Assembly: GCA_900316625.1 (NCBI GenBank)
Contig: ONDO01000016.1
Location: 1-37,603 of the forward strand
Direction of reading: 5' to 3'
DNA from: an uncultured Lachnospiraceae bacterium
Lineage (GTDB): Bacteria; Bacillota; Clostridia; Lachnospirales; Lachnospiraceae
Length of the DNA: 37,603 nt
Shown here one piece after another: positions 20,538 to 25,586 of the stretch. Numbering within the stretch: the stretch's first letter is position 1; the number at the start of each line of letters is the position of its first letter. The translations under genes were made by a program, and so were the position numbers. Under the pieces are notes generated by a model. The model ran no database searches. It was not told the origin of the DNA and saw only the letters and a list, made by a program, of their open reading frames with translations.

Positions 20538-22148
20538 ATGGATATCAGTCTATATCGTACTGAAGTTCAAAACTGGATTATGGAAATTCAAAGCTCGAGA
20601 GGCGCTGACTCATCGAAGACGATAGCCCTCTGCAATAAGCTCGAAGAATATGGGGATCAGACACATGATGATGCCCTGATCGGCTTCGCCTGCTTCACCA
20701 GAGGTGAGACCTATTATCTACAGAATGATATGCCGAATTTCTATCGCGAGATGCTTGACTGCCTGAAGCCCTTGGAGCGTATTCACGAGTGGGGCTATAT
20801 CGTTATGGCCAACAATATGCTGGGAATTGTCTCATTGAATCGTGGCAATGCACCTTTTGCCATGGATTACTACTTAAGATCCCTTTCGATAGCCCATAGT
20901 TACCAGCTGCCGGACCTGGAGTGGATTGTGCATATGAATATGGGTGCGCTCTATCTTAGCGTGGAAGATTATGAGAATGCGCTGGAACAGGTTGATTACG
21001 GATATCGGTATATTCTCGATCATCCTGAGGATGCGGCCTATGTTCAGAATCTGACAGCTGCCTGTGTCAACATGGGTAAGGCCTATCTTGCAACCTTTCA
21101 GATGGATAAGGCAAAAGATATTGTTAACCGGCTGGAGAGGGACTGTGTCCCTGGACTTATGGATCGCGATCGACTGGCCGTATACTGTTTTGAGGCAAGA
21201 TATTATGCATTCAAGCAGGATATCGAGGCGATGGACCACTGCATCACTGAGATCAACCGCCTGGTGGATGATACCATCTGGATCATGGATATGTTCGATG
21301 ATCTCTTCGATTATCTGGGGATGCTGGCAGATATCGGCCGCAAGGAAGAATATAACCATCTCTGGGCGATTATCTACCAGTTATCGGTGAAGACGACCGT
21401 CCTCAATCTGCAGAGAAGGCTCTTGGAACTGCAGATGAATTTCGATAAGAAGTATGAGAATCAGAGTAAGTATGAGACTACGGCACTGAAGTATGCGGAA
21501 GTATCTGTATCTCTGAGTCGTGAAAATCAGCTCATGATGTCGAATATGATCGCTCTTCGGACCAATCTGCAGGATCTTACCATGATCAATCATCAGGTGG
21601 AACGTGAGAATGAGCTTCTGCATAAGAAGTCGGAGACGGATCCTCTGACAGGTATGTATAACAGATTCCGCTTGAATACCTATTGGGAAGAGACCTTTGA
21701 AGAGGCTTATAAGCAGAAGATCCCGATTGCCTTCGAGATTCTCGATATCGATTACTTCAAGGAATTCAATGATAATTACGGACACCAGGCAGGTGACCGT
21801 TGTATTAAGATCGTCGCAGACTGCATTCAGTCCATGACTGCTTACAATGGTATCTTCTGTGCAAGATACGGCGGAGATGAATTCATCCTGGTCTACAAGA
21901 ATTACAGTGATGAAGAGGTTCTTGAATTCGCAAAAGAGCTGAAGAGAAAACTTGCAGCTCAGAAGTTGGAACATAAGTATTCCAAGATCTCGGATGTGGT
22001 AACGATCTCCCAGGGTATCTGCTGGGGTGTTCCCACAGGCTATGAGAAGGCTTGGGACTTCCTTCATACGGCGGATGCTAACCTCTACAAGATCAAGCAG
22101 AAGTCCAGAAATAACATCTGCATTGGTAAATGCGAGAGAGAAGCCTGA
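20538..22148 (+). CDS. TPR-like/GGDEF diguanylate cyclase
   Basis: A 536-residue cytoplasmic protein. Residues ~1-300 are helical repeats of TPR type (for example YLSVEDYENALEQVDYGYRY and MGKAYLATFQMDKAKDIV). A coiled coil follows at ~310-370. The GGDEF domain begins at DPLTGMYNRFRL, has LDIDYFKEFNDNYGHQAGD, and the active-site GGDEF lies at 445-449. The site is intact, so it should make c-di-GMP from two GTP. The RxxD inhibitory site normally five residues before GGDEF is absent (YNGIFCARY), so product inhibition through it is unlikely. There is no transmembrane segment; input is probably by protein contact through the repeats. It begins 14 bases after rsmA. Confidence 0.92.
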   Translation: MDISLYRTEVQNWIMEIQSSRGADSSKTIALCNKLEEYGDQTHDDALIGFACFTRGETYYLQNDMPNFYREMLDCLKPLERIHEWGYIVMANNMLGIVSLNRGNAPFAMDYYLRSLSIAHSYQLPDLEWIVHMNMGALYLSVEDYENALEQVDYGYRYILDHPEDAAYVQNLTAACVNMGKAYLATFQMDKAKDIVNRLERDCVPGLMDRDRLAVYCFEARYYAFKQDIEAMDHCITEINRLVDDTIWIMDMFDDLFDYLGMLADIGRKEEYNHLWAIIYQLSVKTTVLNLQRRLLELQMNFDKKYENQSKYETTALKYAEVSVSLSRENQLMMSNMIALRTNLQDLTMINHQVERENELLHKKSETDPLTGMYNRFRLNTYWEETFEEAYKQKIPIAFEILDIDYFKEFNDNYGHQAGDRCIKIVADCIQSMTAYNGIFCARYGGDEFILVYKNYSDEEVLEFAKELKRKLAAQKLEHKYSKISDVVTISQGICWGVPTGYEKAWDFLHTADANLYKIKQKSRNNICIGKCEREA

Positions 22149-22175
22149 TGGGAAGCCCTGATATTTGGAAATAAG

Positions 22176-22445
22176 ATGGAAAAACAAGCATATACCTATG
22201 TCCTGAAGTGTGCAGACGGAAGCCTCTATACGGGATATACAACGGATCTTGAAGCCAGAGTGGCAACCCATAATGCTGGAAAGGGTGCGAAATATACCAA
22301 GACAAGAAGACCGGTCGAACTGGTTTATTATGAAGTATTCGCCAGCAAGAATGAAGCCATGAAAAGAGAAGCAGCCATCAAGAAGCTTTCAAGAACAAAG
22401 AAACTTGAGATGATTCAGAATGGACTGAAAGAGAAAAGGGATTAG
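22176..22445 (+). CDS. GIY-YIG nuclease domain protein (UPF0213 type)
   Basis: An 89-residue single-domain protein. [17 protein letters not shown] (6-22) is the GIY-YIG core, with YTY in place of GIY and YTG in place of [17 protein letters not shown] and the conserved Glu in [13 protein letters not shown] complete the family pattern. Such stand-alone domains are putative structure-selective endonucleases; the cellular role is unknown. It follows the GGDEF gene by 27 bases with a weak site, GGAAATAAG. Its TAG stop lies inside the 5' arm of a palindromic terminator. Confidence 0.93.
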
Positions 22446-22465
22446 GCAACTGCCTAATCCCTTTT
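22434..22465. terminator. Bidirectional terminator between convergent operons
   Basis: A perfect palindrome runs from AAAAGGGATTAGGCA (22434-22448) through AC to TGCCTAATCCCTTTT (22451-22465). The flanking A and T runs give a terminator in either direction. It ends the metG operon on the plus strand and the glycosylase-tadA-GNAT operon on the minus strand. Its 5' arm contains the stop codon of the GIY-YIG gene. Confidence 0.93.
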
Positions 22466-22497
22466 GAATTACAGAAAACAGGAGCGACCATCGGTTT

Positions 22498-23049
22498 CTA
22501 CTCATTGAGATAAGAATAGAGATAGTGACTCTTCCATTCACCATGGATGCGAACATTATGACGAAGAAGACCTTCCCGCACGAAGCCAAGAGATTCGAGA
22601 AGACGAATGGAAGGTTCGTTGCTGGGTAGAACCATGGCATCAATGCGATGCAGGCCATATTCGAGACTCGTCATGAGTTCCATGACTTCAGAGACAGCCT
22701 CTCTGGCAAAGCCCTGGCGACGGAAAGCAGGATCCATCTTGTAACCAATCTCGCCATCGGAGAAGTCACCATATCTTATGTTATGAACGGAGACGGTACC
22801 AATAGGGATGGAGGAAAAGGAACGGAGAAAGATCCAGACCCGGAACATGCTTCTCTTCCGGATGAGTTCCCGCTCGGTCCGGAGGAGTCTTCGGTGGAAA
22901 TCCTCAGTGTAGAAATCCGGATGACTAATGGGTTCGATGTGTTCAAACTCTTCTGCATTTCTGCGGTAAAAGTCGAGGGTAGCAGCAGTCATATCTTCGT
23001 TCGAAGTTCTGAGTAGGAGACGAGGAGTCTCGAGGATGCGATCTGACAT
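22498..23049 (-). CDS. RimJ/RimL-type GNAT acetyltransferase
   Basis: A soluble protein of about 183 residues that begins with the typical ILETPRLLLRT of this GNAT branch. It has GEIGYKMDPAFRRQGFAREA (about 100-119), with the acetyl-CoA loop RRQGFA, and VLPSNEPSIRLLESLGF in motif B. Members acetylate ribosomal-protein N termini or small molecules such as antibiotics; the substrate here is unknown. Two adjacent ATG codons exist. The second (23049) is chosen because GGAGG lies about seven bases before it. The start overlaps the tadA stop, so it is translationally coupled, last in its operon. Confidence 0.9.
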   Translation of the reverse strand: MSDRILETPRLLLRTSNEDMTAATLDFYRRNAEEFEHIEPISHPDFYTEDFHRRLLRTERELIRKRSMFRVWIFLRSFSSIPIGTVSVHNIRYGDFSDGEIGYKMDPAFRRQGFAREAVSEVMELMTSLEYGLHRIDAMVLPSNEPSIRLLESLGFVREGLLRHNVRIHGEWKSHYLYSYLNE

Positions 23050-23561
23050 CATTTTCCTCCATCCTTTTTCTTGGATTCACGTAATTCCTTGAAGAACTCA
23101 GTAAGCATTGCAGAGCATTCTTCCTCGCAGACACCGGAAGTAACCTCACACTGGTGCATGAACTCTTTCATCTGCAGGATATTGATAATGGAACCGGCAC
23201 AGCCAGCCTTGGGATTCATACAGCCCTGAACCACTCTGGGAATTCTGGACTGGACGATGGCTCCGGCGCACATCATGCATGGTTCTAAGGTGACATACAA
23301 GGTGCAGTCTTCGAGTCGCCAGTCCTTGAGCTTCTTATTGGCCTGCTGGATTGCCATGATCTCTGCATGAGCCAGGGAAGAGTGGGCGCCATTTCTGTGG
23401 TTGTGGCCCTTACCGATGATCCTTCCCTTATGTACAATAACGCATCCGATGGGAACTTCATGACTCTTGGCAGCTTTCCGGGCTTCCTTGATTGCAATCT
23501 TCATGTAGTGCTCATCCATGCGATCCGCTTTGATCTCTTCTAATTTCTTCTTGAAAAACAT
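23049..23561 (-). CDS. tadA: tRNA-specific adenosine deaminase
   Basis: Deaminates A34 to inosine in tRNA-Arg(ACG), extending wobble decoding. The 170-residue protein contains the zinc-dependent deaminase site HAE (65-67, with catalytic E67) and PCMMCAG (94-100). NHRNG lies between them. The N terminus has about 14 extra basic residues before MDEHYMKIA; the start at 23561 is kept because ACGGAGCGTTTT precedes it. It lies 73 bases after the glycosylase/PgeF fusion gene. The gap holds a candidate -10 (TATAAT, reverse complement of 23626-23631) and a 10-bp imperfect hairpin (23591-23616), so it may also have its own promoter. Confidence 0.94.
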   Translation of the reverse strand: MFFKKKLEEIKADRMDEHYMKIAIKEARKAAKSHEVPIGCVIVHKGRIIGKGHNHRNGAHSSLAHAEIMAIQQANKKLKDWRLEDCTLYVTLEPCMMCAGAIVQSRIPRVVQGCMNPKAGCAGSIINILQMKEFMHQCEVTSGVCEEECSAMLTEFFKELRESKKKDGGK

Positions 23562-23634
23562 AAAACGCTCCGTAGGTAACTGCTTCTTCCGTCAATGTAA
23601 GACGACAATGACGGCTGTCAGCTAGATTATATCA

Positions 23635-25140
23635 TTACATGCATTCGTCCATCATCAAAAAAGCATTCTCATTCCCACGGATTCCATGAGATCTGCGATG
23701 TGAGAAGAGAATGTCTGCATTCTCGTAGGTAGAGATGCCGGAGAAGTGGATATTCTTAGCATCCACACCTGCATCGATCAGGGTGTGGTAGATGGCTGCC
23801 CATAGATCGAGCTGGTAGTGGTTTTTATTTGTCTGGATATAGATATCCTCCCACTCATCAGGACGGAAGGCTTCCTTGAACTGTTCGATGACATCGGAAC
23901 TGACCTCATATTCCTTGGCAGGAATCGAGGGGCCGATGACGCAGACGAGATCGCTCGGATTCGTACCATGTTCTCTAAGGATAGAGACCGCCTTGCCGGA
24001 GATCCTCCCAACGGTTCCCTTCCAACCGGAGTGTACCAGAGAGATACGCTTGCCAAGGGGGTCTGCCAGATAGACCGGAACGCAGTCTGCGAAGGTGGCG
24101 GAGAGGGCAATTCCCTTTTTATCTGTCCACAGTCCATCGATACCGGACAGTTTGGGTCTGCATTCCTTGCCAAGCGCAATGCCGGTATCAGCCTGGCGGA
24201 TTTCCGTAGTATGTACCTGATCTGTCATAACGATATGATCCAGGTCCGTGGATAAGTCCTCTGCAGCGAGGGTGTAGGCGTGCATAATGTTCTCCTGCTG
24301 GTCCTGGCGGGAGAAACCAAAGTTCAAGGAACCGCACTGACCCTTGGAAGTACCGCCCAGACGGGTGGTAAAGAAGGCCTGGATTCCTGGAATCTGATCC
24401 AGAGAGTGAAAGCGAATCTGAGGAAGCTTTACTGAGTGGGGATCGGAAGATTCTGCATGGCAGGCCGCTTTTTCGGAAGGGTTCTCTATGGATGTAAGCT
24501 TATACTCTTCCGGTAGAAGGAGATATCCGTCCGCGATATCCTTATCTGCATAGAAGGCTCCGCCGGCAGGCTGCAGCTTGGAGTTGGGGTCGAACATGGA
24601 CAGACTGGGAGTTAAGAGTCTTCTCCATTCATCAACCAAAGCCTCGAACCTCCAGGCGGCATTGGCGGGGCTGGAGGAGGGGAGACAGACAGCACTTCTT
24701 CCGCAGATGGGCTCCAGATATTTGAGATAATATTTCTCAGCAGTCTTACCATTCACAAAGATTCGCTCAATGGTAGAGGTTTTAAGGATTCGTTGAATAT
24801 CAACAGGAATAACATTTCGAATGGAGGAATCCGAGGAACCATCGATCTCACATTCTTCGATGACATCCCAGAGAGCGATATGGTTTGCCTTGAGGAAGGC
24901 CTTCTTCTCAGAGATGTTCTCTGGACTTGGAGCTGTGGTGATCACTTCCGGTCCCTTCTTCATTTCCGAAGGAGAGCCAAAGATTTGCCAGAGGATCTTC
25001 CAGAAGCGGTTCTGGGGATGGCCATAGTAGAAGTCGGCTTCTCTGGACTTGACGGAGGGAAAACTGCCGAGGATGAGGATCCGGCTATCTTCCTGATATT
25101 CCGGGCCGAAAGTGTGATTTGCATGTTTGATGCCTGCCAT
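23635..25140 (-). CDS. Hypoxanthine-DNA glycosylase/laccase-domain (PgeF) fusion
   Basis: A 501-residue two-domain protein. Residues ~5-180 form a uracil/hypoxanthine-DNA glycosylase domain of the UDG superfamily: ILILGSFPSVKS (21-32), DFYYGHPQNRFWK (36-48) and SSSPAN (155-160), as in TIGR04274-type deoxyinosine glycosylases that remove deaminated adenine from DNA. A linker spans ~180-240. Residues ~240-501 form a laccase/PgeF (YlmD-like) domain with the zinc ligands H310 (DQVHT), C353 (ADCVP) and H370 (HSGWKG); this family phosphorolyses or deaminates adenosine and inosine. The frame extends 16 codons further from a TTG, but ATG 25140 is chosen because TTGGAG precedes it and it gives the family N terminus. 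It heads an operon with tadA and a GNAT gene. Confidence 0.88.
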   Translation of the reverse strand: MAGIKHANHTFGPEYQEDSRILILGSFPSVKSREADFYYGHPQNRFWKILWQIFGSPSEMKKGPEVITTAPSPENISEKKAFLKANHIALWDVIEECEIDGSSDSSIRNVIPVDIQRILKTSTIERIFVNGKTAEKYYLKYLEPICGRSAVCLPSSSPANAAWRFEALVDEWRRLLTPSLSMFDPNSKLQPAGGAFYADKDIADGYLLLPEEYKLTSIENPSEKAACHAESSDPHSVKLPQIRFHSLDQIPGIQAFFTTRLGGTSKGQCGSLNFGFSRQDQQENIMHAYTLAAEDLSTDLDHIVMTDQVHTTEIRQADTGIALGKECRPKLSGIDGLWTDKKGIALSATFADCVPVYLADPLGKRISLVHSGWKGTVGRISGKAVSILREHGTNPSDLVCVIGPSIPAKEYEVSSDVIEQFKEAFRPDEWEDIYIQTNKNHYQLDLWAAIYHTLIDAGVDAKNIHFSGISTYENADILFSHRRSHGIRGNENAFLMMDECM

Positions 25141-25216: not shown

Positions 25217-25268
25217 TAGTCTGTGGGAGAGGAAGCAAGTACTATCGCCCTATCCCGGTGCTTTTCGA

Positions 25269-25297
25269 TTGACAAAAAGCAAAAGCCCCTATATAGT
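25269..25297 (+). promoter_or_regulatory. Promoter of the SRP RNA gene
   Basis: TTGACA (25269-25274) and TATAGT (25292-25297) with a 17-base spacer. Predicted initiation near 25304 is ten bases before the basal stem of the RNA. Confidence 0.85.
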
Positions 25298-25313
25298 AAG
25301 TATTCGACAGACA

Positions 25314-25483
25314 GGAGCGTATCCTGGGCTGTCCGAATATCGCATTGATGTTGGGTCTCGCGCAATGGATCCCTGCGAACCGTGTCAGGTCAGGAATGAA
25401 GCAGCACTAAGCAGGAACTTTCATGTGCCGTGAGGGTGCCTGACGGAGCGGTGTTCGGATAGTTCAGAATGCGCTCCTTTTTT
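25314..25483 (+). ncRNA. ffs: Signal recognition particle RNA (small bacterial type)
   Basis: The SRP core GTGTCAGGTCAGGAATGAAG (25383-25402), followed by CAGCAC, carries the GGAA tetraloop (25393-25396) and the asymmetric-loop strand GAAGCAGC that bind Ffh. The pair closing the tetraloop is A-U rather than the usual C-G, a compensated change. The ends pair over a long basal stem: GGAGCG at 25314 with CGCTCC ending at 25477, continuing to ATATCGC near 25343 with GCGGTGT near 25448. It is followed by TTTTTT, so the stem probably also serves in termination. No Alu domain is apparent, so this is the short form of about 165 bases before any end trimming. It scaffolds Ffh for co-translational membrane targeting. 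Confidence 0.92.
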
Positions 25484-25586
25484 GTGCCCCAATCAGGCCC
25501 GAAAGATGGGCTCACTTTCTTTACTTTCCTCTGTAAAACAATTAGAATTATGCTGTATTAGAATCATTTTTTGGATTGGTGATAGT

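Follow-up and report, generated by a model that had tools for sequence, protein, structure and literature searches.

A hypoxanthine-DNA glycosylase joined in one reading frame to a PgeF/DUF152 domain in a small bacterial clade

Introduction

In a 37,603-nucleotide stretch of DNA from an uncultured Lachnospiraceae bacterium, referred to here as the window, one gene joins a hypoxanthine/deoxyinosine-DNA glycosylase (HDG) domain to a PgeF/DUF152 domain and lies next to tadA. Is this a genuine bifunctional protein, and do its two halves serve one pathway? The role of the PgeF/DUF152 family is itself contested, with the available portions of the literature assigning it to peptidoglycan-precursor editing (PMC8844914) or to purine-nucleoside metabolism (PMC6978800).

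Results

Architecture of the fusion protein

The fusion gene starts at an ATG at position 25140 of the minus strand, closely preceded by a GGAG, and contains no internal stops across 501 amino acids (Table 1). Its product scores 123.5 bits against TIGR04274 (DNA-deoxyinosine glycosylase; cut-off 80, residues 11-172) and 149.2 bits against TIGR00726 (PgeF; cut-off 141.15, residues 266-497), and the Pfam cut-offs for UDG and Cu-oxidase_4 are passed as well. With one open frame and both curated cut-offs passed, the initial annotation was right to describe an intact UDG-superfamily domain continuous with PgeF. The motifs it had named are present, GSFPS at residue 25, YYGHPQNRFWK at 38 and SSSPAN at 155, and its residue numbers H310, C353 and H370 are correct.

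The two domains are separated by a linker; in our alignment (A1), the 43 standalone rows hold hardly any residues in its columns 176-240 (0-6 of 65). Five linker residues, F196, Y197, K200, D204 and Y206, are invariant across five fusions and, by eye, present in a sixth (G1242), giving the shared pattern FYxxKxxxDxYx.

Table 1. Features of the fusion locus in the window
Feature	Residues	Position	Strand	Basis or remark
HDG-PgeF fusion gene	501 aa	23635..25140	(-)	ORF and NCBIfam profile matches
HDG domain	11-172	24625..25110	(-)	TIGR04274; identical span by genome search
Linker	173-240	24421..24624	(-)	Alignment with standalone proteins
Linker motif FYADKDIADGYL	196-207	24520..24555	(-)	Alignment of fusions
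PgeF/DUF152 domain	241-501	23638..24420	(-)	TIGR00726 and Q308, H310, D335, C353, H370, W373
tadA, tRNA adenosine(34) deaminase		23049..23561	(-)	NCBIfam profile, locus comparison; neighbour, judged outside the unit
Large bacterial SRP RNA gene		25256..25491	(+)	Divergent from fusion; recurrent neighbour of tadA

Distribution and origin of the fusion

A search for the domain pair found six genomes with the fusion, spread over three genus codes (g1, g84 and g250): the window's own (G000) and five others that carry it in an open frame (G201, G083, G257, G390 and G1242). The fear that the fusion might be confined to a single genome with a frameshift at the junction is thereby dispelled. Pairwise identity is 46-56% over the ten pairs formed by the five proteins other than that of G1242.

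The surveys behind this count overlap. In a family draw of 200 genomes, each of a different genus code, 195 match either half; among the matches listed, both domains fall in one match only in G000 and G083, the same two that are PgeF-fused among the long frames obtained when a 200-genome family draw is searched for HDG. Nine genomes of the window's genus were searched, with the fusion present in G000 and G201. At E<=1e-64, a 397-genome family draw that repeats many genomes of earlier draws returned six genomes, four with fusions (G000, G083, G257 and G390) and two with standalone PgeFs, while 295 genomes of the order yielded no fusion besides the window's. G1242 came from a search at E<=1e-62 that covered 79 relatives of G083, and at this threshold three of six genomes of g84 carry the fusion; both E cut-offs apply to the best stretch, so that a fusion whose halves have both diverged might have escaped. 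L031 (uncultured Clostridiales RUG055) holds the same two domain sequences as G257 on a contig of equal length and was counted once. None of 75 plasmid-collection and 17 phage-collection records covered 80% of the query, the matches being partial only, and a scan of viral contigs found no relative of the fusion. No HDG-PgeF fusion appeared in the titles and abstract beginnings of open-licence PMC articles, a search that does not establish absence from print.

The fusions of G390 and G1242 (L112:1889-3679 (+) and L161:1462-3189 (+)) have extra loops in both domains, Ala/Gly-rich by eye, which adjoin otherwise conserved sequence.

In a quick tree of 78 HDG domains a single branch sets the five fused HDGs apart from the rest (SH-aLRT 91), and in a careful tree of 45 PgeF domains the five fused PgeFs are grouped with a support of 100/100; G1242, found later, is in neither tree. 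As the fused halves group together in both trees, we conclude that the fusion arose once. Among 96 HDG loci and 53 PgeF loci (duplicates counted, flanks mostly 1.5 kb), both domains occur together in 13 loci, all of them the fusion itself. No locus holds them as separate genes, so that no ancestral gene pair is visible in the sample.

At E<=1e-3 the fused gene is the only match to either half in G000, G201, G083, G390 and G257, of which G000 (84% complete) and G390 (88%) could conceal a separate HDG or PgeF copy. As sole HDG and sole PgeF, the fusion must carry both functions, if these are kept.

Two observations would fit an artefact of assembly or frameshifting, or else a pseudogene fusion in decay: among the matches listed in the family draw nearly all others are single-domain, and the draft assembly to which the window belongs (1.93 Mb in 52 contigs, the window being one of them) is 83.65% complete. 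Against such an origin stand the open and divergent fusions of six genomes, catalytic residues that are kept, and the monophyly of both halves; we rejected this explanation, which the independent genomes refute and which has next to no probability left. The fusion is a real domain architecture, conserved in a small clade and found nowhere else in the sampled genomes, made of ordinary parts whose coupling is unproven.

The glycosylase half

All five fusions scanned pass TIGR04274. Among 73 other HDG rows, 21 alignment columns are at least 97% conserved, and all five fusions retain 17 of these in common. Conserved residues retained throughout include G25, P28, Y39, N44, F46, A89, D92, S155, S157 and A159; W47, G101 and P158 are kept in four of five fusions and W91 in two, with Tyr in the other three. 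The window's domain has an insert at about residues 57-70, where the 73 other rows have gaps. By sequence, the best-scoring solved chain is 2l3f (4.5e-12).

UDG family 6 comprises the hypoxanthine DNA glycosylases, which are reported, in the available text of two papers, to excise hypoxanthine and not uracil from DNA (PMC5387724, PMC8438529). The domain passes the equivalog cut-off of TIGR04274, the model of the Methanosarcina barkeri hypoxanthine-DNA glycosylase of this family, and differs from the 150-position model in being joined to PgeF. Judged by its family, the N-terminal half would remove hypoxanthine, that is, deaminated adenine, from DNA and leave an abasic site.

The PgeF half and its active site

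The four other fusions scanned score 144.7-167.5 bits against TIGR00726. Q308, H310, D335, C353, H370 and W373 are kept in all five fusions aligned, and by eye the catalytic residues are also kept in G1242. The first five correspond to Gln69, His71, Asp89, Cys107 and His124 of E. coli YfiH, whose Trp127 is kept too. The accessible part of one study describes YfiH as a UDP-MurNAc-L-Ser amidase with a Cys107/His124/Asp89 site plus Gln69, a hydrolysis rate of 274,084 nmol/min/mg, and an Arg235 that binds the substrate carboxylate (PMC8844914). By alignment Arg235 corresponds to N490, with R488 two residues before it, Tyr227 to H481 and Arg128 to K374, and the other fusions aligned likewise have Asn, His and Lys there. 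The Asn and the His at the first two positions are shared with the four standalone relatives shown.

The residues H310, C353 and H370 equally match the ribose-coordinating His80-Cys125-His142 of the DUF152 purine enzymes (FAMIN/YlmD type). In the portion of the work available, recombinant YlmD and YfiH act in vitro on adenosine, which yields inosine and adenine, and on inosine, which yields hypoxanthine; FAMIN's own purine rates are called low (PMC6978800). The purine-contacting Arg59 of YlmD is Tyr289 in the window protein, numbered by hand count; this position is Y/F/W in all five fusions, Y/F in the four standalone relatives shown, and Arg in E. coli YfiH. His47, the YlmD gatekeeper near the bound purine, is Ser277 (likewise by hand count).

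Compared with PgeF, YfiH, YlmD and FAMIN (DUF152, TIGR00726, PF02578), the fusion thus passes the equivalog and keeps the His-Cys-His triad together with the Asp and Gln of YfiH, but is joined to a glycosylase, sits on a long stem branch, and has Asn for Arg235 of YfiH and Tyr for Arg59 of YlmD. On alignment, it appears to fit the catalytic core of both the YfiH-type and the YlmD-type activity, and the full ligand contacts of neither. The PgeF half may or may not act on adenosine and inosine, as the initial annotation claimed: YlmD and YfiH do so in vitro, but E. coli YfiH hydrolyses UDP-MurNAc-L-Ser and Arg59 has given way to Tyr. The half is not securely a purine enzyme.

The stem of the fused PgeF clade is long, at 1.05 changes per column against a median end branch of 0.48. 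A Cys pair (positions 407 and 410), each member of which is present in 37 of 39 standalone relatives, is gone from the fusions, and R483 stands where 34 of the 39 have Ala. The long stem and the loss of the Cys pair suggest that the specificity of the fused PgeF may have shifted. After such a shift the PgeF half could act on a damage product linked to base-excision repair, either a damaged nucleotide or a repair intermediate; the R483 substitution, the conservation of a private linker motif and the recurrence of repair enzymes as HDG partners would be in keeping with this too. However, the Cys pair is likewise missing from E. coli YfiH, in which the residue aligned with R483 is also Arg, so that neither change implies a new activity. 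Moreover, of 25 columns that do not vary among 39 standalone PgeFs, 20 are unchanged in every one of the five fusions, and in a sole copy the ancestral role would have been lost. We consider such a repurposing unlikely.

Genomic neighbourhood and tadA

On the strand of the fusion, tadA follows 73 nt 3' of it, and a GNAT-like gene (NCBIfam matches below cut-off) overlaps tadA by 4 nt; all three are co-directional in the window. In four of four other fusion genomes tested, all drafts (G201, G083, G390 and G257; G1242 lay outside the test), tadA and the fusion are on different contigs. In G201, where a contig end is about 1.2 kb from the fusion, the immediately following gene is something other than tadA. 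An SRP RNA gene is found in the flanks (up to 1.5 kb) of 10 of 19 tadA loci other than the window's. G204, from the window's genus, has the order TatD-RsmA-tadA-SRP RNA-DivIVA-like (protein names by eye); the window keeps TatD, RsmA, the SRP RNA gene and a similar DivIVA-like gene, with tadA reversed relative to G204. Since the G204-type order is broken in the window and tadA recurrently lies near the SRP RNA gene, the adjacency of fusion and tadA looks like a local rearrangement.

When window positions 20538-25140 are compared with the G204 locus (L142), the genes between RsmA and the SRP RNA gene of the window include a GGDEF gene, the GNAT-like gene, the fusion and a small gene that is GIY-YIG-like by eye.

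The 79-nt stretch that spans the gap between fusion and tadA has no unusual fold (z -0.61). On the fusion strand the gap contains no terminator-like site and one promoter-like site (9 of 12; such sites are overall at chance level). Co-transcription of the two genes is possible in the window's genome; the gene order is not conserved. An all-against-all comparison of the 15-32 kb part of the window with the loci of G201, G083, G390 and G257 gave a single shared neighbour, a ClpX-like gene (by eye) several kb from the fusion, in G201 and G083. One shared neighbour at such a distance gives no sign of a pathway operon. By eye, G390 and G1242, which belong to one genus, appear to share neighbours.

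The initial annotation had proposed a local adenine-deamination module; of this, the intact and conserved two-domain fusion is supported and the link to tadA is not. In such a module HDG would clear hypoxanthine from DNA, and the PgeF half would deaminate or phosphorolyse (deoxy)adenosine and (deoxy)inosine, for an inosine-free pool or purine salvage. The in vitro conversions by YlmD and YfiH, the matching ribose-coordinating triad and the fusion of HDG elsewhere to NUDIX, MGMT and MutY enzymes are consistent with it; the replacement of Arg59 and His47 and the unlinked tadA of the four other genomes argue against it. What a DNA glycosylase releases, moreover, is a free base and not the nucleoside that PgeF would take as substrate, so that a direct relay between the halves is not obvious. 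We regard the module as rather improbable.

Other fusions of the HDG domain

HDG scores above its cut-off in 120 of 200 family, 61 of 196 order, 114 of 291 class and 37 of 299 phylum genomes, or 332 genome matches with overlaps between the draws counted. In 21 distinct genomes of these four surveys, the window's included, the match lies in an open frame of at least 240 amino acids. By eye, seven of these have only an open N-terminal extension (G046, G154, G913, G896, G977, G1167 and G1188), and 14 have a recognisable second region; G206, from the genus search, was added to the 14 for the list of partners.

Besides PgeF, the C-terminal partners are NUDIX (G189, G265), MGMT/Ogt (G206; G815, G857), MutY (G162), acylphosphatase (G043), an alpha/beta-hydrolase-like (G917) and a cupin-like region (G1039), the latter two below Pfam cut-offs, and two unknowns (G086, G885). 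The C-terminal regions at L052:700-1983 (-) and L129:1553-2404 (+) have no Pfam match at E<=0.001. The HDG-MGMT fusions (L045:1141-2061 (-), L127:1511-2515 (+) and L128:1044-2126 (-)) have two separate origins on the HDG tree, and that of G206 lies within the window's own genus. The tree also separates the two HDG-NUDIX fusions (L027:1084-2070 (-) and L114:1433-2410 (+)). In HDG-MutY (L077:1920-3581 (+)) the MutY part exceeds its curated cut-off (HhH-GPD and NUDIX_4), which places two DNA glycosylases in one chain. As in the window, the same glycosylase stands N-terminally with its partner behind it in one frame; in contrast to PgeF, the partners of these three types are DNA repair or NUDIX enzymes, and none of the HDG halves joined to them belongs to the PgeF-fused clade.

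HDG is thus a repeated joiner of other enzymes. With G815 and G857 taken as one, there are ten independent events with non-PgeF C-terminal partners, five of them repair or NUDIX, a class drawn after the fact and with no background rate for the 5/10. This share suggests that HDG partners are not random.

N-terminal partners include a glycosyltransferase in two genomes of different genus codes, G172 and G063 (L065:592-1974 (+), L083:1-1206 (-)); in G063 the gene is cut by the contig end, its HDG is below the cut-off and its glycosyltransferase is a putative one. In G569 (L115:3102-5918 (-)), the part in front of HDG, continuous in frame with it, is by eye an EF-G/ribosome-protection-like protein that includes a NYN-like stretch. 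Matches below the cut-off comprise an HDG with an internal insert (G062) and weak UDG-like parts of longer proteins (G1101, G1179); G993 and G707, also below it, have no BLAST match to HDG. A separate MGMT gene lies near a separate HDG gene in G202, G203, G120 and G009, and a NUDIX gene does so in G135.

Discussion

The fused frame is intact, both halves pass their curated families, catalytic residues are kept, the fusion has a single origin, and it is the sole copy in five genomes. The chemical activities of each half we infer from their families. To a lineage-restricted, once-formed bifunctional protein made of two independent enzymes, with the PgeF half as a peptidoglycan-precursor editor, we give about an even chance. 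Alongside the glycosylase, the PgeF half would then work in the cytoplasm as a hydrolase in its own right; most likely it would remove mis-charged UDP-MurNAc-L-Ser during peptidoglycan precursor synthesis, possibly with weak purine-nucleoside activities. The fusion would mainly couple expression and dosage and would not form one pathway; we infer this coupling, which is unproven. A shared adenine-damage pathway of the two halves is possible and likewise unproven.

We favour two independent enzymes with PgeF as precursor editor because the rate of E. coli YfiH on UDP-MurNAc-L-Ser is high and the purine rates of FAMIN are called low, as far as the available parts of those reports go. We favour this reading also because the fusion is the only PgeF in the five genomes tested, and because B. 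subtilis PgeF (YlmD) complements an E. coli yfiH defect, as cited in the accessible portion of an annotation paper (PMC5743806). HDG is also fused to partners without an evident purine role, Cys107, His124, Asp89 and Gln69 of YfiH are all matched, and there is no sign of a pathway operon. Counting against this reading are the repair and NUDIX enzymes among the HDG partners (5/10), the alignment of YfiH Arg235 with Asn490, the long PgeF stem and the loss of the Cys pair. Given the repair share among these partners, we treat a damage-linked role of the PgeF half, over the module and the repurposing together, as a tentative minority possibility.

As a conserved natural protein, the HDG-PgeF fusion is a defined case in which both claims about DUF152 are testable side by side. 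We also consider, as distinctly doubtful, that the PgeF half has turned into, or brings to light, an enzyme that acts on purine nucleosides or nucleotides arising from damage, for example deoxyinosine, in which case a single protein would rid DNA and the precursor pool alike of deaminated adenine. If true, this would bear directly on the dispute between the cell-wall editing and the purine-enzyme view of DUF152 proteins.
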